In this document: positions 16,322 to 50,028 of the stretch, piece after piece
How positions within the stretch are numbered: the first letter of the stretch is position 1
Layout of the letters: each line of letters starts with the position of its first letter
Source of the DNA: Phycisphaerales bacterium
GTDB lineage: Bacteria; Planctomycetota; Phycisphaerae; Phycisphaerales; UBA1924
DNA length: 64,000 bases
NCBI GenBank assembly: GCA_029260475.1
Contig: JAJDDE010000125.1
Coordinates: 1-64,000, forward strand
Direction: 5' to 3'
Position numbers and translations under genes: made by a program
Notes under the pieces: model-generated
What the model saw: the letters and a program-made list of their open reading frames with translations, nothing else
Told to the model about the DNA's origin: nothing
Database searches by the model: none

Positions 16322-18055
16322 ATGCCGCCACAGACACCAATGCCCGATCCGGACCTGCTCAGCGTCGCGCGGGGCGAGTCGCCCGCCGACCTGGTGATCA
16401 CGGGCGGGCGGGTGGTCAACGTCTTCACCCGCGAGATCATTCCCGCGGATGTCGCGATCAAGAACGGGCGGATCGCCAGCGTCGGCCCGGAGCGGGAGGG
16501 CGCCGAGCGGATCGACGCCTCGGGCGCGTTCCTCTTCCCGGGCTTCATCGACGCCCACATGCACATCGAGTCCACGATGACGCGCCCGAGCGTCTTCGCG
16601 ACCCTCGCGAGCCCGCACGCGACCACCGGCGTCGTCGCCGACCCGCACGAGATCGCCAACGTGCTGGGGATCGCGGGCATCCGCTGGATGATGGACGACG
16701 CGATCGGTGCGCCCGTCCGCGTCTTCTGGACCGCCAGCTCGTGCGTGCCCTCGTGCCACCTCGAGCACAGCGGCGCCTCGCTCTCCGCGTCGGACCTCGC
16801 CCCGCTCTTCGAGAGCGACCGCCTCGTGGCGCTCGCAGAGATGATGAACTTCCCCGGCGCCGCGCTGGGTGACGCGTCGGTCCTCGAGAAGATCGCGCTG
16901 GGCTTGGACCGCGCCATCGTGGATGGGCACGCCCCGGGGCTCTCGGGGGACATGCTCCAGGCGTACGCGGCGACGGGCATCTCGAGCGACCACGAATGCA
17001 CGAGTGCGGCAGAAGCGCTCGAGAAGCTACGCCTAGGCATGCAGGTGTACATCCGCGAGGGCTCGGCGGCCCGCAACCTGGAGGCGCTGCTCCCCGCGGT
17101 CACCCCCGAGAACGCGCACCGCTTCTGCTTCTGTACCGATGATCGGCACCCGGGCGATCTGGACGAGCAGGGCCACATCGACCACGTCGTGCGCCAAGCG
17201 ATCGCGCGGGGGCTCGACCCGGCGACGGCCATCGCGATGGGTTCGCACCACACCGCCAAGCACTACCGGCTCCCCGCGATGGGCGCGATCGCGCCCGGGT
17301 ACCACGCGGACTTCGCGATGACCAGCGACCTCAGAGCGCTGCCCATCGACGCCGTTTATCTTGCGGGGCGGCGCGTCAGCGAGGGGGGGCGCTGCCTGCG
17401 CGAACCGAAGGCGATGACCCCGCCGCCGAGTTCGCCGGTGCGCCTGCCCGATGATCTGAACGCCGAGCGTCTCTGCGTGCCCGCGTGCGCGCGCATCCGC
17501 GTCATCGGCATGGACCCGACGCAGCTCGTAACGCAGCACGACACGGACACGCCCAAGGTCGAATCCGGCGCGTGCGTGAGCGACACGAAGCGCGACATCC
17601 TCAAGCTCTGCGTCATCGAGCGGCACACCGGCACGGGCAACGTGGGTCTCGCTTTCATACGAGGATTCAAGCTCCAGCGCGGCGCCATCGCCTCCACCGT
17701 AGGGCACGACGCCCACAACCTCGCGGTGCTGGGCGTCAACGACGACGACATGCTCCTGTGTGCGCGCCACCTCGCGAAGGTCGGCGGTGGGCAGTGTGCA
17801 GCCCTCGACGGCGAGATCCTCGCGACGCTCCCGCTCCCCATCGCGGGGCTCATGTCCGATCAACCTGCGGAGGCCGTCATCGAGTCGCAGCGAGCGCTGC
17901 TCGACGCGACGCGCGAGCGCCTGGGCTGCCCGCACCACGACCCCTTCATGCCGCTGAGCTTCATGCCGCTGCCGGTGATCCCGAGCCTGAAGCTGACGGA
18001 CCTCGGGCTGGTGGATGTGGACCGCTTCGAGGTGGTGCCGATCGACGCTTCGTGA
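16322..18055 (+). CDS. ade: Adenine deaminase
   Basis: LVITGGRVVNVFTREIIPADVAIKNGRIASVG...FPGFIDAHMHIESTMTRPSVFA...VADPHEIANVLGIAGIRWM...SDHECTSAAEALEKLRLGMQVYIREGSAARNL. Confidence 0.92.
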   Translation: MPPQTPMPDPDLLSVARGESPADLVITGGRVVNVFTREIIPADVAIKNGRIASVGPEREGAERIDASGAFLFPGFIDAHMHIESTMTRPSVFATLASPHATTGVVADPHEIANVLGIAGIRWMMDDAIGAPVRVFWTASSCVPSCHLEHSGASLSASDLAPLFESDRLVALAEMMNFPGAALGDASVLEKIALGLDRAIVDGHAPGLSGDMLQAYAATGISSDHECTSAAEALEKLRLGMQVYIREGSAARNLEALLPAVTPENAHRFCFCTDDRHPGDLDEQGHIDHVVRQAIARGLDPATAIAMGSHHTAKHYRLPAMGAIAPGYHADFAMTSDLRALPIDAVYLAGRRVSEGGRCLREPKAMTPPPSSPVRLPDDLNAERLCVPACARIRVIGMDPTQLVTQHDTDTPKVESGACVSDTKRDILKLCVIERHTGTGNVGLAFIRGFKLQRGAIASTVGHDAHNLAVLGVNDDDMLLCARHLAKVGGGQCAALDGEILATLPLPIAGLMSDQPAEAVIESQRALLDATRERLGCPHHDPFMPLSFMPLPVIPSLKLTDLGLVDVDRFEVVPIDAS

Positions 18056-30748: not shown

Positions 30749-31495
30749 ATGAACCTCACCCACACCGCCATCGCGGCGCTGGTTATCGGTGCGCCCGCCC
30801 TCGCCGGCTTTGCGAACATCGATTTCTCCGTCGAGGACGATTTCCTCACGCCCCTCGTCAACGGGCAGGAGATCAACAGCCCGGGTGAGTTCGGCAACCT
30901 CTTCACGATCACGTCCACTGGACGCCTGGCGATCTTCGACACCTCCGATCCCGGTGCGAACGACGCGGGCGGCGACCCCGACCTGCTCGTGAACCAGGGC
31001 AACGCGCTGATCATCCAGAACACGGGCATGCTCACGCAGTCCACCGCAGACATCTTCAACACCCCCAACGACAGCGCGGGTGGCGGCAGCATCTTCTTCA
31101 ACTTCCTGCAGCCCGCCGAGCTCGGTAGCGTGGACCTGATCGACGTGGACGACGCCAACGGCGTCACCGTCACGCTGACCGATGACATGGGTCGCCAGCG
31201 CGTTTATAACGTGCCCAACAGCTTCACCAACGAGGTCAACACCGACGGCCCCGCCGGCTTCGACACGCTGAGCCTGCTCGACACCATGCCCCAGCTGGGC
31301 GAGGGTGGCGGCACCGCGACGCTCGTCTCCGAGGACATGGGCTACGACGCGACCCGCGTGCTCACCCTTGAAGTGGACCTCGCCGGCTCGGGCGGCGTGG
31401 ACAACCTCTTCATCGAGTCGATCGTGCCCACCCCGGGTGCCGCGGCCCTCTTCGCCTGCTCGGGTCTCGCGATGATCCGTCGTCGTCGGGCCTGA
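30749..31495 (+). CDS. Secreted protein with PEP-CTERM-like sorting signal, paralog 1
   Basis: Signal peptide; C-terminus IVPTPGAAALFACSGLAMIRRRRA (P-x-P + TM helix + Arg cluster); agagagaag RBS. Confidence 0.8.
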   Translation: MNLTHTAIAALVIGAPALAGFANIDFSVEDDFLTPLVNGQEINSPGEFGNLFTITSTGRLAIFDTSDPGANDAGGDPDLLVNQGNALIIQNTGMLTQSTADIFNTPNDSAGGGSIFFNFLQPAELGSVDLIDVDDANGVTVTLTDDMGRQRVYNVPNSFTNEVNTDGPAGFDTLSLLDTMPQLGEGGGTATLVSEDMGYDATRVLTLEVDLAGSGGVDNLFIESIVPTPGAAALFACSGLAMIRRRRA

Positions 31496-31805: not shown

Positions 31806-32555
31806 GTGAATCACTCGACCACCGCCGCCCTCCTGCTGGGCTTCGTCGCGGCCCCCGCCCTTGCCGGCTTCGCAACCATCGACTTTTCGACCGAGGACGA
31901 TTTCCTCACGCCCCTCGTCAACGGGCAGGAGATCAACAACCCGGGCGAGTTCGGCAACCTCCTGACCTTCACCGGTCTGAGCGGCAGCCGCTTGGCGATC
32001 TTCGACACCGACCCCGCGGGCCCGAATTCCGGTAGCGGCGACCCGGACCTTCTGGTCGGACAGGGCAACGCCCTGATCATCCAGAACACCAGCCTGCTTA
32101 CCCAGACCACCGCCGACATTTTCGACACCCCTGATGACAACATCGGTGGCGACTTCGTCATCGACCTCGTCACCGCCGGGCAGGTCTCGAGCATCGATCT
32201 CATCGACATCAACAGCGGCGGGCGCACCGTCATCACGCTGACCGACGAAAACGGCTTCCAGCGCGTCTACGACGTCCCCAGCAACTGGTCCAACCAGGCC
32301 CCGACCCCCATGGGCTTCGACACGCTCAGCCTGCTGACCCTGCTGCCCCAGGACGGCGAGGGCTCCGGCGGCGACGCGATCGTCACCCTCAACGACGCGG
32401 GCTACGACCAGTCTGCCGTCGCGAGCATCAACTTCCGCGTCTTCGGCTCCGCTGGCTTCGACAACATCGTCATCGATTCGCTCGTCCCCGCGCCCGGCGC
32501 CCTCGCGCTGTTGGGTCTGACGGGCCTCGCTGGCGTCCGTCGCCGCCGCGCCTGA
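31806..32555 (+). CDS. Secreted protein with PEP-CTERM-like sorting signal, paralog 2
   Basis: FATIDFSTEDDFLTPLVNGQEINNPGEFGNLLTF... parallels paralog 1; C-terminus VPAPGALALLGLTGLAGVRRRRA. Confidence 0.82.
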   Translation: MNHSTTAALLLGFVAAPALAGFATIDFSTEDDFLTPLVNGQEINNPGEFGNLLTFTGLSGSRLAIFDTDPAGPNSGSGDPDLLVGQGNALIIQNTSLLTQTTADIFDTPDDNIGGDFVIDLVTAGQVSSIDLIDINSGGRTVITLTDENGFQRVYDVPSNWSNQAPTPMGFDTLSLLTLLPQDGEGSGGDAIVTLNDAGYDQSAVASINFRVFGSAGFDNIVIDSLVPAPGALALLGLTGLAGVRRRRA

Positions 32556-32721: not shown

Positions 32722-34161
32722 ATGCCCGACGACCCCGACATCCCCATCCTCGACGAGGACGGCCTGCTGCCCGCCGACACGCCCCCGCCCTGGGGGACCG
32801 AGTCACGCGAGGTGCGCCTCGGGCGCCTGTCGCGCAAGGCGCGCGAGCTGCCCAAGGCGCCGGGTGTGTACCTGATGAAGGACCACAAGGGCGTGGTGCT
32901 CTACGTCGGCAAGGCGGGGAGCCTGCCGGACCGTGTCTCGAGCTACTTCGTGCCCAGCGCCGACCTGGGTCACAAGAAGATGCCGCTGCTGGAGGTGGTC
33001 CACGACTTCGACGTGCTGCTCTGCGCGGGCGAGTGGGAGGCGATGCTCACGGAGAACCGGCTGATCAAGGACATCAAGCCGCGGTACAACGTGAAGCTGG
33101 TGGACGACAAGACGTTCCCGTATCTCGTGGTGACGCAGCGCGAGGACTTCCCGCGCGTCTTTGTCACGCGGAACCCGACGGGCGAGCAGGGGGAGGGGGG
33201 CATCGCGCCGGAGATGAAGGGCGCCAAGGTCTTCGGCCCCTTCACCAACGCCGGGGCCCTGCGCGACGCGGTGACGGCGTTGCAGCGTGTCTTCAAGTTC
33301 CGCACCTGCAAGCTGGACATCCTCGAGAACGACCCGAAGAACCGCTTCTTCCGCCCCTGCCTGCTGCACGCGATCGGCCAGTGCACCGCGCCCTGCGCCG
33401 ACCTCATCAGCAAGGAGGATTACAAGCGCGACACCGACCGCTTCGTGCGCTTCGTCGGCTCCAAGCGCTCGGCGCTCATGCGTGAGCTCAAGGAGGAGAT
33501 GGAGCGCCACTCGAAGGACCTGAACTTCGAGCGCGCCGCCCAGGTGCGCGATCAGATCACCTCCATCGAGAAGCTCGACGAGCGCGGCGACCGGCGCGAC
33601 GGCTGGCAGCCCGAGAGCGAGATCGCCTACGTGGACCCGAAGAAGGGCACCAAATCCCTGCAGAAACTGCTCGACCTCGACAAGCCCATCCGCGTCATCG
33701 AGGGCATCGACATCGCCCACCTGCAGGGCGGCGAGACCGTCGGCAGCAAGGTGTGCTTCGTGGACGGCAAGCCCTTCAAGGACGAGTACCGGCGCTTCCG
33801 CATCCGCACCGCGGTGGGGGGGAATGACGATTACCAATCGATCCGCGAGGTGGTCAGCCGTAGGTACCGCGAGGCGGGCGCCGGGCAGGAGCTGTACCCC
33901 GACGTGATCCTCATCGACGGCGGTCTGGGCCAGCTCCACGCCGCGCTCCAGAGCTTCATGACGCTCGACACGCGCCCGCCGATGGTCATCAGCCTCGCGA
34001 AGAAGGAAGAGCTGATCTACGTGCAGGAGCGCAAGGAACCCATCCGCGTGGGGCGTGAGCACCTAGGGCTGAAGCTCTGCCAGGCGGTCCGCGACGAGGC
34101 CCACCGGTTCGCGCAGCACTATCACCACATTCTGCGGCGGAAGAAGACGCTGGGGGAGTGA
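32722..34161 (+). CDS. uvrC: Excinuclease ABC subunit C (short form)
   Basis: GIY-YIG: APGVYLMKDHKGVVLYVGKAGSLPDRVSSYF; UVR motif region; PDVILIDGGLGQLHAALQ; LCQAVRDEAHRFAQHYHHILRR then stop (no C-terminal HhH). Confidence 0.92.
   Translation: MPDDPDIPILDEDGLLPADTPPPWGTESREVRLGRLSRKARELPKAPGVYLMKDHKGVVLYVGKAGSLPDRVSSYFVPSADLGHKKMPLLEVVHDFDVLLCAGEWEAMLTENRLIKDIKPRYNVKLVDDKTFPYLVVTQREDFPRVFVTRNPTGEQGEGGIAPEMKGAKVFGPFTNAGALRDAVTALQRVFKFRTCKLDILENDPKNRFFRPCLLHAIGQCTAPCADLISKEDYKRDTDRFVRFVGSKRSALMRELKEEMERHSKDLNFERAAQVRDQITSIEKLDERGDRRDGWQPESEIAYVDPKKGTKSLQKLLDLDKPIRVIEGIDIAHLQGGETVGSKVCFVDGKPFKDEYRRFRIRTAVGGNDDYQSIREVVSRRYREAGAGQELYPDVILIDGGLGQLHAALQSFMTLDTRPPMVISLAKKEELIYVQERKEPIRVGREHLGLKLCQAVRDEAHRFAQHYHHILRRKKTLGE
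34047..34161 (+). repeat. Upstream copy of repeated uvrC 3' end
   Basis: ...VGREHLGLKLCQAVRDEAHRFAQHYHHILRRKKTLGE*; matching degenerate copy at 34692-34806. Confidence 0.8.
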
Positions 34162-34198: not shown

Positions 34199-34651
34199 CT
34201 AGTTTTTGATATTAGCGAACGGGATGGAGCAGACTATTTCTCCATCGTGTATCTCCACGCTGACCGATCTATACATTGACTTGCCGTCCAGGCTGCCCTT
34301 GTAGAGCAAAGATCCTCTCAGCGGATTTACGGCATTGAGAACCAGGTACTGGTTGTGCGCCTCCGCCCTATCATCGGGCTCCGGATCCCAGGCATAGCCC
34401 GGAAGTGCTTGATGTAGCGACCTGTTTGCGTACTCCAACGCCACCGCTTCGGGCAACGATTTCGGCTCAGCCGCGTATGGGAATACATATTTTCCGTGCA
34501 CAGACCTGAGGCTTGATACCACCACAAGAACGAGCGTGCCAAGAGCGCACAGCGCGGAGACAGTGATGATTGTGTTTCGCCTGGTCACGTTTCGCGCACC
34601 TACATTCATTCGTGGGTATGTGCCGAGCGGGTTCATGTCGCAGCCCCGCAA
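34199..34651 (-). CDS. Hypothetical protein with N-terminal TM segment
   Basis: RRNTIITVSALCALGTLVLVVVSSLRS TM segment; lower GC than surroundings; lies between the two uvrC tails. Confidence 0.5.
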   Translation of the reverse strand: MRGCDMNPLGTYPRMNVGARNVTRRNTIITVSALCALGTLVLVVVSSLRSVHGKYVFPYAAEPKSLPEAVALEYANRSLHQALPGYAWDPEPDDRAEAHNQYLVLNAVNPLRGSLLYKGSLDGKSMYRSVSVEIHDGEIVCSIPFANIKN

Positions 34652-34691: not shown

Positions 34692-34806
34692 GCCGTGCAT
34701 GGGCGCGAGCACCCGGGCCTGAGGCTCTGCCAAATTGTCCGTGAGGCCCACCGGTTCGCGCATCACTACCACCATATTTTGCGCTTGAGGAAGAGGCCGG
34801 GGGAAT
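34692..34806 (+). pseudogene. Detached, diverged copy of the uvrC 3' end
   Basis: In-frame VHGREHPGLRLCQIVREAHRFAHHYHHILRLRKRPGE* vs uvrC VGREHLGLKLCQAVRDEAHRFAQHYHHILRRKKTLGE*; nucleotide alignment with a single 3-nt deletion. Confidence 0.85.
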
Positions 34807-34822
34807 GACGTATCCTGCGCGC

Positions 34823-35245
34823 ATGCTCCGCGCGCTGTTGCTCTTCTCGCTGCTCCTCCTCCCCGGCTGCATCTCCGGCGCGACCCGCAGCGTGACGATG
34901 CGCGTCACCGCGCCCGATGGGTCGCCCGTGCCCAATGCGCAGGTGTACGCGGTGGTGCTGGGGCGGTCGCCCGTGCCGTTGCCGATCGATGCGGAGACGA
35001 TCTCGGAGGTGCTCACGAAAGAGAGCATCAGCGGCTGGACGGACAGCGACGGCGAGGTGCGACTGGAGCTGGATGAGGACGAGGGGCACGTGATCTTTTT
35101 GAGGCCGCCGCCGGTGGGGCCTTATGCGCTGGGGCCGGGCGAGGCGGGGGCGTACCGGTACCTGCTGGACGCGGGCGAGGGGCTGCGTGCGGACCCGGTG
35201 GGGGGCGGCGAGCCGCCATTGTTGAAACTCGAGACCGTCCGATAG
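34823..35245 (+). CDS. Small lipoprotein with carboxypeptidase-regulatory-like (Ig-like) domain
   Basis: MLRALLLFSLLLLPGCISGATRSVTMRVTAPDGSPVPNAQVYAVVLG. Confidence 0.6.
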   Translation: MLRALLLFSLLLLPGCISGATRSVTMRVTAPDGSPVPNAQVYAVVLGRSPVPLPIDAETISEVLTKESISGWTDSDGEVRLELDEDEGHVIFLRPPPVGPYALGPGEAGAYRYLLDAGEGLRADPVGGGEPPLLKLETVR

Positions 35246-41698: not shown

Positions 41699-44527
41699 AT
41701 GGCAACCATCACGATGGACGGTCACAGTCTGGCGTTGGACGGCAGGCGCATGTGGATTGTTTCGGGCACGCTGCACATGGCGCGCACGCCTCGCGAGCTG
41801 TGGGCGCACCGCCTGCGCCTCGCCAAGCACGCGGGCCTGAACACCGTCGAGGTGCCGGTGGTCTGGTCCCACCACGAGCCCCTGAAGGGCAAGTTCGACT
41901 TCAAGGGCCAGCGCGACATCGGTGCCTTCATCGAGCTCGCCGCCGAGTTCGAGCTGCGCGTGATCCTGCGCGTCGGGCCCTTCATCGGCGAGGGCTACGA
42001 CCTGGGCGGCATCCCCGCGTGGCTCGTGCCGCTCACGGAGCGCCGCCTGCGCGTGGGCTCGCCCGAGTTCCTGCAGGCCTGCAGCAAGTTCCTCTCCAAG
42101 CTCTGCAACCAGGTGAGCGGGTACCAGGCGACGCGCAAGGGCCCCACGCCCGGCCCCGTCATCATGGTGCAGTACGAGCACGGCTGGGATTGCGGCGACG
42201 ACGTCGCGGCGGACGTCTACCTCAAGGAGATCGGGCGCTTCCTGCGCGAGGGCGGCATCTCCGTCCCCTTCGTGAATCGCAACCAGCTCTTCGCGGGGCT
42301 CGAGGCGGACATCGATTCCTGGGAGGGCTTCAGCGGCCTCAACGGCACGGTCCGCCAGCTCGGCGCTATCAAGCCCGACCGCCCGCGCATGGTCATGGGC
42401 CTCCGCGTCGGCGCCGCCGACATCTGGGGCTCCGAGCCGCGCAGCGAGAAGACGCCCAGCATGGTGCTCCGCGCCATCGCCGAGTGCCTCGCAGCGGGAG
42501 GGCAGTTCAACCTCTCGCCCTTCGCGGGCGGCACCTCGATGGGCTTCGGGGGCGGGCGGCTCGACGGCGACGCCAACGCCTACACCACCACCAACCGCGA
42601 CGAATCGGGCCCCGTCACGCAGTCCGGTGCGCAGGGACCGATCTTCGATTCCGTGCGCCGCGTGTGTACGTTCGCGAGCGCCTTCGAGCGCATCTTCGCG
42701 GGCCTGGAGCACGACAGCCCGACGGTGGTCGTCGCGCCCGACACCGTCGCGCCCGCGATCCTCGATGACGACACCGGTGCGCACGAGACCAAGCGCTCCA
42801 ACTCGGCCCCGAACGTGAGCGTGACCCACGCCTCGGGTGCGCAGGGCTCGATCGCCTTCGTCTTCACGGACGCCGAGCCGGGCGGGCGCACGAAGCGTGA
42901 GGCGGTGCTCACGCTCCCCGACGGTCGCACGCTGCCCGTCGAGATGGGCGACCAGCCGGTGAGCTGGTACCTCTTCGACGCGCACCTGCAGGGCGCTGCG
43001 ACGCTGAACTTCTCCAACCTCTCCCCGCTCACGCTCGTCGGCAAGACGTTCGTGCTCTTCGGGCCTCCGGGCGCGACGGGCATCGTGTCGATCAACGACG
43101 CGGAGCTGCACGTCTCGGTCCCCAAGGGGCGCACGCCCTTCGTGGTGGAGCACGAGGAGATCAACCTCGTCATCTGCAACACCGAGCAGATCGACGCGAC
43201 GGTGATCACCGAGGGCGAGGTCTACGTCGGCGCGGGCGGCATCGATTCAGAGGGCCTGCCCATCGGGCACACCGCCTTCAAGACCTGCACCGTCATCACC
43301 GCCGAGGGCGAGAAGCGCACCGAGCAGCTCCACAACCCCGCGGGCGGGCGCACCAAGCTCGCCCTGGAGAGCTGGAGCCGCGCCGACCAGGCCGACTACC
43401 TCGACGGCAGCAACCCGCGCTACGCCCGCATCGACGGGCCCGACACCATGGAGTCCCTCGGCACGCCCCAGGGCTACGCGTGGCTGCGGATGGAGCTCAA
43501 GAACGGCGCGACGCGCAAGCCCAAGGTCGCCTTCTTCAAGGCCGCCGACCGACTGCATCTCTACGAGGGCTCCGACCTCAAGGCCCTCGTCGGGCACGAG
43601 CCCGACGCCGATACGGACCTCGTCACGCTCTCGCTCAGGAAGGGCGCACAGACGCTCGTCGCGCTCGTGGACAACCGCGGGCGCCTCTGCGGCGGCAACT
43701 CCATCGGCGAGGCCAAGGGCCTCTACGGGCACGCCTACGAGACCGAGCCCCTCCAGGCCGGCACCACCAAGGCCGGCAAGGGCAGCATCGAAGAGCTCGA
43801 CTCCATCGACCCCTTCGCCCACCTCCCCTCGCCCCTCTACGGCGTCCAGAAGGGCGACCGCACCGACCCGATGCGCATCCGCTGGGAGTTCACCCACCGC
43901 AAGAAGTGCCCCGTGCTCGTCGCGATCGACCCGACAGAGACCATCGACGCGCCGGCCCTCGTGATGCTCAACGACGTGCCCGTCGCGATGCTCGGACCGG
44001 GAGGGCGCTCCCGCTTCGAGTTCGACAGCGAGACGCTCAACCGCGGCGCCAACACGCTGGACATCGCGATCATCAACCACGCCCAGCCCTACCACGAGGC
44101 GCTGGTTGACAGCGTGCGGATGTTCGAGGGCGCCGCGAGCCTGACGGAGAAGGCCGACCTCGCGTTTGCGCGATGGGAGGTGCCGCAGGCGGTGAACTTC
44201 GAGGACGTTTCGAAGTCCAAGCTCGCGGGCAAGGGTGCCTCGGACATCGCCGGCACCCCCTGCTGGTGGCGCACCACGTTCACGCTCAAACACACCGAGC
44301 GCCCCGTGATGCTGGACCTCTCGGGCATGAGCAAGGGCCAGGTCTTCCTGAACGGAGAGAACCTGTGCCGCTACTGCGTCGCCGACCGCAACGGCACGCC
44401 GGTGCCGCCACAGACGCTGTACTACCTCCCCGAGCCGATGATCAAGACGGACCAAGAAGAGAACGAACTCCTGCTATTCGACGAGCACGGGTTCGCGCCG
44501 GCGAAGGTCGGGATCGCGTACGAGTAA
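41699..44527 (+). CDS. Glycoside hydrolase family 35-like beta-galactosidase
   Basis: WIVSGTLHMARTPRELWAHRLRLAKHAGLNTVEVPVVWSHHEPLKGKFDFKGQRDIGAFIELAAEFELRVILRVGPFIGEGYDLGGIPAWLVP; C-terminal jelly-roll-like segments. Confidence 0.82.
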   Translation: MATITMDGHSLALDGRRMWIVSGTLHMARTPRELWAHRLRLAKHAGLNTVEVPVVWSHHEPLKGKFDFKGQRDIGAFIELAAEFELRVILRVGPFIGEGYDLGGIPAWLVPLTERRLRVGSPEFLQACSKFLSKLCNQVSGYQATRKGPTPGPVIMVQYEHGWDCGDDVAADVYLKEIGRFLREGGISVPFVNRNQLFAGLEADIDSWEGFSGLNGTVRQLGAIKPDRPRMVMGLRVGAADIWGSEPRSEKTPSMVLRAIAECLAAGGQFNLSPFAGGTSMGFGGGRLDGDANAYTTTNRDESGPVTQSGAQGPIFDSVRRVCTFASAFERIFAGLEHDSPTVVVAPDTVAPAILDDDTGAHETKRSNSAPNVSVTHASGAQGSIAFVFTDAEPGGRTKREAVLTLPDGRTLPVEMGDQPVSWYLFDAHLQGAATLNFSNLSPLTLVGKTFVLFGPPGATGIVSINDAELHVSVPKGRTPFVVEHEEINLVICNTEQIDATVITEGEVYVGAGGIDSEGLPIGHTAFKTCTVITAEGEKRTEQLHNPAGGRTKLALESWSRADQADYLDGSNPRYARIDGPDTMESLGTPQGYAWLRMELKNGATRKPKVAFFKAADRLHLYEGSDLKALVGHEPDADTDLVTLSLRKGAQTLVALVDNRGRLCGGNSIGEAKGLYGHAYETEPLQAGTTKAGKGSIEELDSIDPFAHLPSPLYGVQKGDRTDPMRIRWEFTHRKKCPVLVAIDPTETIDAPALVMLNDVPVAMLGPGGRSRFEFDSETLNRGANTLDIAIINHAQPYHEALVDSVRMFEGAASLTEKADLAFARWEVPQAVNFEDVSKSKLAGKGASDIAGTPCWWRTTFTLKHTERPVMLDLSGMSKGQVFLNGENLCRYCVADRNGTPVPPQTLYYLPEPMIKTDQEENELLLFDEHGFAPAKVGIAYE

Positions 44528-44528
44528 G
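44482..44528 (+). repeat. Upstream copy of 47-bp exact direct repeat (GH35 3' end incl. stop codon)
   Basis: cgagcacgggttcgcgccggcgaaggtcgggatcgcgtacgagtaag; identical at 46177-46223. Confidence 0.95.
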
Positions 44529-44577
44529 ACGCGGGTTCCCGCGTCGATCCCGAGAGAGTTGTTCGAGGAGGTCCCCG

Positions 44578-46080
44578 GTGGTGCAACGCGGAAATTCGAA
44601 TTCTCGCGACGTGTACGTGCGCCAGCTCAGCGCCCTGCTCCGGCAGCACCATGATGCAGAGGCCCTGCGCGTCGCCGAGGCGTTGCCGACGAAGTTCAAG
44701 AGCGACTCGCAACTGCTCTTCTTGCACGCGACGGCGCTCGAGCGCGCGAAGAAGTGGGACAAAGCGATCGATCGTGCGAAGCGGTCGCTCCGGGTCAAAG
44801 AGCATCCGAACGCACACCTGCTCATCGCGCACTGTCACAAGGTGCTCGGGGAGACCGAGGAAGCGCTGCAAAGCCTCGACCGTGCCGAGAGACTCAGCCC
44901 GGGCCTCGAGCAGACGGTGCAGCAACGGAGCGGGGTGCTGGAGGCGGCGGGGCGTTTCGATGAGGCGACGGCGATTCTTGCGGAGCTCGTTGAGCGCAAA
45001 GAAGCGTCGGGTACAGCGATACGCCCCGGGCTGCGCATCGAGTGGTCCAAGCTGCTCGTGCAGAACAAGCGGCTCGACGAGGCGATCGCCTTCATCGATG
45101 TCACCCTCGGGATGTCCGGGCTCCCCGCCCCGATGCGTGCCAGGCAGTTCTTTCTCAAGGCGAAAGCCCTCGATCGGAAGCGGGAGTACGCGGCAGCGGC
45201 GGAGGCGGCGGCCCGGGCGAACGAGATCGATGCGAAACCATTCGACCCGTCGAAGAGCACCAGCCAGGTTGATCGGCTGATGCGGGATTGGTCGCGCGAG
45301 AAGATGGCGACGTACCCGATTTCGACGTGCGATTCGGAGATCCCGGTCTTCGTGGCGGGCATGCCGCGCTCCGGTACTTCCCTCGTCGATCAGATCATCG
45401 ACGCGCACCCAAAGGCCGCGGGCGTGGGCGAGCTCGACACCATCGAGCGGTTCGCGACGAAGATATCCCGAGCGTTCGACCCCTCTAAACCCGACGGCAA
45501 GCAGTTCGGGTCCATCGATTCGTTCCGCTGGACGCGTGCGGCGGATGACTATGTGCGCAGCGTAAAAAAGCTCGCTCCGGAGGGCGCCGAGCGTGTGGCG
45601 AACAAGGCGCTGAGCAACTTCCTACTCCTCGGCGTGATGTCGCGGCTATTCCCCAAGATGCGAGTCATTCACATGATCCGCGACCCACGCGACGTCGCGG
45701 TCTCGTGCTTCATGGGGGACTTCAACAACTACATGCACCCATGGACGGTGCGTGTGGATTGGGCCGCCCAGTTGTGGTGCGAGTCGATGCGGTTGATGGA
45801 TCACTGGAAGTCGTCGTTCGACGTGCCCATCCTCGACGTGTACTACGAAAACCTCGTGGCCGACCCCGAGCACGAGTTCCCGCGCCTCGTTGAGTTTCTC
45901 GGCCTGGAATGGGACGATCGCTGCTTCGGGTTCCACGAGACGAAGCGCACCGTCCACACGCTGTCCTACGACCAAGTGAACCGCCCGCTGTACACCAGTT
46001 CTTGCGGGCGCCACAAGCATTACGCGTCGCTGCTCGAGGGCGTGGAGTTCCCCGCGTACGACCCGACGGCGGCGCGATGA
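44578..46080 (+). CDS. TPR-containing sulfotransferase family protein
   Basis: TPR-like N-terminus (DSQLLFLHATALERAKKWDKAIDRAKRSL); PVFVAGMPRSGTSLVDQIIDAHPKAAGVGELDTIE (PAPS 5'-phosphosulfate-loop type); MIRDPRDVAVSCF. Confidence 0.88.
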   Translation: MVQRGNSNSRDVYVRQLSALLRQHHDAEALRVAEALPTKFKSDSQLLFLHATALERAKKWDKAIDRAKRSLRVKEHPNAHLLIAHCHKVLGETEEALQSLDRAERLSPGLEQTVQQRSGVLEAAGRFDEATAILAELVERKEASGTAIRPGLRIEWSKLLVQNKRLDEAIAFIDVTLGMSGLPAPMRARQFFLKAKALDRKREYAAAAEAAARANEIDAKPFDPSKSTSQVDRLMRDWSREKMATYPISTCDSEIPVFVAGMPRSGTSLVDQIIDAHPKAAGVGELDTIERFATKISRAFDPSKPDGKQFGSIDSFRWTRAADDYVRSVKKLAPEGAERVANKALSNFLLLGVMSRLFPKMRVIHMIRDPRDVAVSCFMGDFNNYMHPWTVRVDWAAQLWCESMRLMDHWKSSFDVPILDVYYENLVADPEHEFPRLVEFLGLEWDDRCFGFHETKRTVHTLSYDQVNRPLYTSSCGRHKHYASLLEGVEFPAYDPTAAR

Positions 46081-46139
46081 ACCACGCGGCGGAGTGTCCG
46101 TGCGCGAAGCGTGCATGACCGTTGCGCCCGGCGATTTTC

Positions 46140-46223
46140 GAGACTGTCCAGGAAGAGACGAGTCCCTGCTCCTCGGCGAGCACGGGTTCGCGCCGGCGAA
46201 GGTCGGGATCGCGTACGAGTAAG
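46140..46223 (+). pseudogene. Detached copy of the 3' end of the GH35 gene
   Basis: ~84 bp homologous to 44444-44528, last 47 bp identical, ending EHGFAPAKVGIAYE*; upstream part has a 1-nt indel. Confidence 0.9.
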
Positions 46224-46247
46224 CCGCAGGACATCACGATCTCAACG

Positions 46248-46277
46248 AGCCCCGGGTGCGAACCCGGGGTTCTTCCT
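46248..46277 (+). terminator. Rho-independent-like terminator
   Basis: agccccgggtgcgaacccggggttcttcct: stem CCCCGGGT/ACCCGGGG then T-rich. Confidence 0.65.
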
Positions 46278-49824: not shown

Positions 49825-49844
49825 GGCGGGGAGTACATGAAACT

Positions 49845-49966
49845 CCGGGTGGCCGGGAACAGCCGCGTCGGCTGCTCCCGGAGTGTGTCAGCACGGCCGA
49901 AGTACTCCCAACCCGCATGTCACCCCTCCCGGGAGCCGCTGAAGCAGCGGTTCCCGGCCACCCGGA
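49845..49966. repeat. Intergenic double-hairpin repeat, copy 3
   Basis: ccgggtggccgggaacagccgcgtcggctgctcccgg ... cccgggagccgctgaagcagcggttcccggccacccgg. Confidence 0.8.
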
Positions 49967-50028
49967 GGTGCACCGCCCCCCGATCCGCCCCAGATCCGCC
50001 CCGTTTCGTCGCCGCATACACTGATGGC

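Follow-up and report, generated by a model that had tools for sequence, protein, structure and literature searches.

A 47-bp repeat behind a GH35 gene is one of six tail-insert-tail loci in a Phycisphaerales genome

Described systems with displaced or duplicated gene ends

In Neisseria, minimal mobile elements are single genes that homologous recombination exchanges at sites lying between conserved flanking genes. They differ from the loci described here, which we call scars and in which an intact resident gene is followed by one inserted gene and then by a second copy of the resident gene's tail, in that a gene is replaced and not added, and no duplicated gene tail is known to be left behind. 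For the Rhs genes, displacement of the C-terminal tip by homologous recombination with a circular intermediate has been proposed (Jackson et al. 2009, PMC2935791). In Rhs genes and scars alike, new DNA lies behind a conserved sequence while the old gene end, together with a fragment of the core, is moved downstream; in the scars, the old gene end with its conserved fragment is found downstream of an intact gene. The scars, in contrast, affect housekeeping genes and a tRNA, leave the product of the target practically as it was, and carry as cargo a gene in its own right instead of a toxin tip.

Integrative elements, for example the thaumarchaeal iMGEs, of which 14 of 68 lie in the 3'-distal parts of protein genes (PMC6563490), share with the scars direct repeats at gene 3' ends, a regenerated gene end, tRNA and protein-gene targets, and empty sites in relatives; known att sites measure 29-69 bp in Crenarchaea (PMC6563490). 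The repeats of the scars restore the 3' ends of their genes, and relatives have empty sites for tRNA-Leu and uvrC. By comparison with the iMGEs, the scars have no integrase, a single cargo gene in an insert of only 0.5-1.6 kb, and, within roughly one third of the genome, six targets unrelated to each other; neither a recombinase inside the element nor a common core site was found. Insertion with long target duplication has been described for restriction-modification genes (Nobusato et al. 2000, cited in PMC3031569) and also leaves foreign genes between long direct target repeats (51-111 nt here) with no transposase. The scars depart from this in that their repeats end exactly at gene ends and enclose no restriction-modification cargo.

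The GH35 and uvrC loci

The window analysed here is a stretch of 64,000 nt (positions 1-64,000) from contig JAJDDE010000125.1 of Phycisphaerales bacterium GCA_029260475.1, a metagenome-assembled draft genome of 210 contigs. An initial annotation had reported an exact direct repeat of 47 bp shared by the end of a GH35 β-galactosidase-like gene and the DNA behind a TPR-sulfotransferase gene, and both copies lie precisely where it had placed them (Table 1). The core occurs exactly twice in the window with up to three mismatches allowed, and the 47-bp pattern is absent from 100 of 100 dinucleotide shuffles of the window, which excludes a chance origin. The extension of the repeat, initially put at about 84 bp with mismatches and one indel, is longer when measured: the gapped alignment covers 100 bp at 85% identity (110 bits) and contains one 1-nt gap. 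Its mismatches are uneven, the 47-bp core being exact and the 46 nt to its left holding 12 mismatches and the gap.

Copy 1 closes the GH35 ORF, TAA included, and encodes an NELLLFDEHG motif common to relatives. Copy 2 is intergenic, begins 52 nt 3' of the sulfotransferase gene, which itself starts on GTG with AGGAGG upstream, and has a deletion of 1 nt; it reads LGEHG in place of FDEHG and so lacks the conserved FD. The good terminator proposed behind this detached copy takes the form of a strong hairpin with a T-rich stretch and, to judge from the sequence, is probably the original GH35 terminator. Between the two copies there is neither a transposase nor an integrase, in agreement with the initial annotation.

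Table 1. Coordinates of the features of the GH35 and uvrC loci (positions in the window) and location of the other scars.
Feature	Position	Strand	Evidence or remark
uvrC, target gene of the second scar	32722-34161	+	uvrC orthologs of 40 relatives at 58-75% identity
uvrC tail copy 1, functional	34051-34161	+	retains conserved RDEAHRFAQ..RRKKTL
uvrC scar cargo, 150-aa ORF of foreign composition	34199-34651	-	no Pfam match
uvrC tail copy 2, degraded	34701-34808	+	78% over 111 columns; relatives' RDEAHRFAQ to R-EAHRFAH, RRKKTL to RLRKRP
Lipoprotein gene, normal uvrC follower	34823-35245	+	ortholog directly behind uvrC in G021, G001 and G011
GH35 beta-galactosidase-like target gene	41699-44527	+	Pfam Glyco_hydro_35, E=5.7e-52
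GH35 tail copy 1, functional 3' end	44436-44535 (core 44482-44528)	+	85% over 100 bp to copy 2
Perfect hairpin GACGCGGG-TT-CCCGCGTC directly 3' of GH35 copy 1	44528-44545	+	sequence, fold
Cargo TPR-sulfotransferase gene	44578-46080	+	Sulfotransfer_3, E=4.8e-39, plus TPRs (Pfam)
GH35 tail copy 2, detached and degraded 3' end	46132-46230 (core 46177-46223)	+	alignment to copy 1
Strong hairpin plus T-rich stretch 3' of GH35 copy 2	46248-46277	+	fold, sequence
Further scar loci	mdh, L046; 3D-domain gene, L069; metG, L191; tRNA-Leu CAA, L067		
Right repeat border relative to gene end (nt)	uvrC 0; 3D 0; tRNA +1; mdh +2; GH35 +1 to +8		

GH35 orthologs are present in 56 of 61 searched genomes. Two arrangements had been named as speaking against an insertion, namely relatives that lack the sulfotransferase and nevertheless carry two GH35 tails, and a degraded GH35 paralog of which copy 2 would be the end. 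Among 30 relatives, no GH35 gene has a sulfotransferase behind it and none has a second tail (two short matches are at chance level), and the DNA adjoining copy 2 contains no further GH35 sequence, which leaves the degraded paralog without support. These 30 relatives are only about 39-46% identical, and the genes downstream differ among them; the source is the only genome of its genus compared, and no true empty site was seen among these 30 distant GH35 loci. The initial interpretation, in which the detached copy was the original GH35 end and the sulfotransferase was inserted in front of it and regenerated the gene tail, fits all findings, with support that is indirect at GH35; the empty sites sought in relatives exist for tRNA-Leu and uvrC, where synteny shows the same.

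The same window holds a second scar, overlooked by the initial annotation, in which the uvrC tail is copied behind an ORF of GC 0.547 whose GC3 is lower than that of all 815 host genes. The gap between uvrC and the lipoprotein gene is 0 to about 130 nt in the three relatives listed in Table 1 (tblastn); in the source genome, the lipoprotein gene comes after the detached uvrC tail.

Six scars in the scanned part of the genome

The initial annotation had also suggested looking for other gene-tail direct repeats. A scan of about 1.21 Mb (~35% of the source genome), built on a simple purpose-written gene caller and on direct repeats with one genic and one intergenic copy, yielded six tail-insert-tail loci in total, at GH35, uvrC, mdh, a 3D-domain gene, metG and tRNA-Leu(CAA); GH35 is thus not unique. 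Each scar consists of a 51-111-nt tail on an intact gene, a one-gene insert and a second, degraded tail; tail pairs are 78-93% identical, and 539-1596 bp separate them. By ORFs and Pfam, no recombinase is encoded in any of the six inserts. The right border of the repeat falls within 8 nt of the gene end in five of the six scars; under a uniform model of random target duplications of ~100 nt, at least five of six borders that near the gene end have a P of about 2e-5. At metG, the border falls short of the present stop by 21 nt and of the stop that follows the detached tail by 9 nt, and coincides with the end of the conserved part of the protein. The tRNA-Leu is split at its anticodon arm. The six repeats and loci have no common sequence beyond matches of 14-16 nt, and the six inserts, compared at the level of primary sequence with an integron attC-type site in mind, share no sequence either.

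No gene-head counterpart of these tail scars occurs in the scanned ~1.21 Mb; a gene-head repeat in L094 was rejected, as it represents the signal peptides of paralogous PEP-CTERM genes. A 72% tail copy in L065 (2828-2898 and 2965-3035), only 137 bp behind its gene and without cargo, is possibly an old or emptied scar and was excluded from the count of six. In the window, another exact repeat of 47 bp (30832-30878 and 31892-31938) was rejected as a scar; it lies in the 5' parts of PEP-CTERM-like tandem genes (30749-31495 and 31806-32555), which are ordinary paralogs. GC-rich palindromic intergenic repeats (CCGGGTGGCCGGGAACAGC...) occur at 127-308, 765-957 and 49838-49972 of the window and at 1-116 and 699-815 of L060, where two copies lie on either side of a gene similar to those for REP-associated tyrosine transposases (RAYT); the repeats 175-308/824-957 and those in L060 look like a REP-type family and were likewise rejected as scars.

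The six cargos are the sulfotransferase, the 150-aa ORF, a GNAT acetyltransferase, a small zinc-ribbon membrane protein, a zinc-ribbon membrane protein and a PEP-CTERM-like protein. Compared with 815 host genes, their GC3 lies between percentiles 0 and 8 in five cases and at the 17th percentile for the sulfotransferase (0.838, host mean 0.881); in composition the cargo looks foreign. Homologs of the sulfotransferase (49-56% identity) are patchy within the family, and no repeats flank them in relatives. GH35 and the sulfotransferase are neighbours in none of 60 relatives searched, nor are mdh and such an acetyltransferase in any of the 40 relatives searched for both genes. The start codon of the new gene overlaps the target's stop in an ATGA at mdh and at metG, as it would in a natural gene pair. 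The gene inserted behind metG and the native downstream gene are moreover homologous (32%, E=2e-19), which looks as if two alternative arrangements of metG and its next gene had been joined; these two genes are only 32% identical, whereas the metG tails are 89% identical. In the same locus, the inserted gene and the detached metG tail form an in-frame fusion, and the final 85 bp of the inserted and next genes (16442-16526 and 17383-17467 of L191) are 93% identical.

Which of the two tails is the original gene end can be read from gene order. In at least ten relatives of the same family, tRNA-Leu lies 67-307 bp upstream of a DUF3467 gene; in the source genome, DUF3467 is found 46 bp past the detached tRNA tail, and a 1.1-kb insert separates the tRNA from that tail. 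The order mdh, small gene, xerD of two relatives recurs here behind the detached mdh tail, in which the conserved VKDLV has become VKDLF. Since the native next gene follows the detached tail and the order is uninterrupted in relatives, the detached copy is taken as the original gene end, and on this synteny the position is shown at two sites, tRNA-Leu and uvrC. The loss of residues conserved in relatives likewise shows, at the level of sequence, detached tails in decay. Differences between tails number 15/12/26 by codon position, a pattern that does not decide whether the tails diverged before or after they were joined. A XerC/D-like recombinase gene (2590-3618 of L046) stands immediately past the mdh scar; as this gene is conserved beside mdh in two relatives, its adjacency is probably a coincidence.

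Comparable scars were absent from 400 kb of three relatives and from 400 kb of E. coli K-12; at the rate of the source genome, about four would be expected in these 0.8 Mb (P of none, about 0.02). None was seen behind the uvrC, mdh and GH35 genes of relatives (0 of 88 genes; 90 tails tested including the source genome's own uvrC and mdh).

A proposed single crossover and the competing explanations

A single crossover that added one foreign gene behind the 3' end of a resident gene may underlie each scar; all six are compatible with it, and we give this proposal, the likeliest of those considered, an even chance. The donor would be a small DNA molecule, in the simplest case circular and about 0.6-1.7 kb long, in which the final 51-111 nt of the resident gene precede a new downstream gene; a crossover inside the short common tail would splice it into the chromosome, leave the resident gene complete with the new gene directly behind it, and shift the old gene end past the insert, where it would be unused and decay. 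Since its end is either brought in by the donor or common to both, the resident gene would stay whole; and as the homology of donor and recipient covers the coding end and not the DNA beyond, the repeat would not run past the gene end. Only tails would be hit because insertion there spares promoter and coding sequence, while insertion at a head would part the gene from its promoter. Six repeats with no common sequence are expected if every donor matches its own target gene, and this absence agrees better with general homologous recombination than with a single site-specific enzyme. The ATGA overlaps at mdh and metG and the homologous neighbours at metG are further hints in this direction, and a crossover through a circular intermediate has likewise been put forward for Rhs tips (PMC2935791). 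We infer the circular form, the RecA-type crossover and a donor with both genes as neighbours. Against a single crossover, such a donor neighbourhood does not appear in the relatives searched, and the tails are uniformly 51-111 nt, where free homologous recombination should leave long ones too unless the circles are small. The cut of the tRNA end at the anticodon arm also counts against it, as integrases use this site as well.

This last observation bears on the main rival, in which the scars would be miniature integrative elements with att repeats at gene 3' ends, moved in trans by a tyrosine recombinase and reduced to one gene, having lost or never had an integrase. It is the main rival because the ends of tRNA and protein genes are usual sites and the source genome has genes for about ten tyrosine recombinases; moreover, the anticodon arm is a typical integrase site, the repeat lengths of the scars resemble those of known att sites (PMC6563490), and the repeats end at gene ends. 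With no recombinase in any insert, six targets lacking a common core sequence, for which several specificities would be needed, and a cargo that is a single ordinary gene, start-coupled to the target in two cases, we regard this explanation as possible but doubtful. Insertion with long target duplication, in which random hits would duplicate tens to hundreds of bases and only tail hits would survive selection, has its precedent in the restriction-modification genes as cited in PMC3031569, and would account for long direct repeats around single foreign genes. It predicts right borders scattered over as much as about 100 nt behind the stop, at odds with the clustering at the gene end and its low P value, and the six cargos include no restriction-modification gene; we consider it unlikely.

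Less likely again is a local tandem duplication of a gene tail together with its downstream gene, followed by divergence or deletion. While the homology of the inserted and native genes at metG and the 93% identity of their final 85 bp speak for it, inserted and native genes are unrelated at the other scars, the repeats stop at the gene end without entering the next gene, the cargo is foreign in composition, and the inserted and native genes at metG are far less alike than the metG tails. An assembly artefact, with contigs of strain variants abutted at a common k-mer overlap, could be suspected from repeat lengths near common k-mer sizes in a draft of 210 contigs; such an overlap would however be identical, whereas the tails differ by 7-22% and have lost conserved residues, and the junctions are continuous and free of Ns, which makes an artefact very improbable.

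The single crossover can be extended, more tentatively and with considerable doubt, to a lineage-wide mode of acquisition in which one-gene circles bearing a host gene tail would insert additively, any conserved gene could serve as a landing site, and no dedicated recombinase would be needed. If true, the lineage would have a general route for the gain of single genes. The entry of single genes into genomes by means other than integrases, transposons or integrons has long lacked an explanation, and the GH35 47-bp repeat is one of six scars that would record such an entry, each of them with an insert that encodes neither a transposase nor an integrase. The scars mark the exact entry point, both parents of each junction and, through the decay of the tail, a rough relative age; as they can be counted in any genome by a simple scan, the share of single-gene gains that took this route would become measurable.
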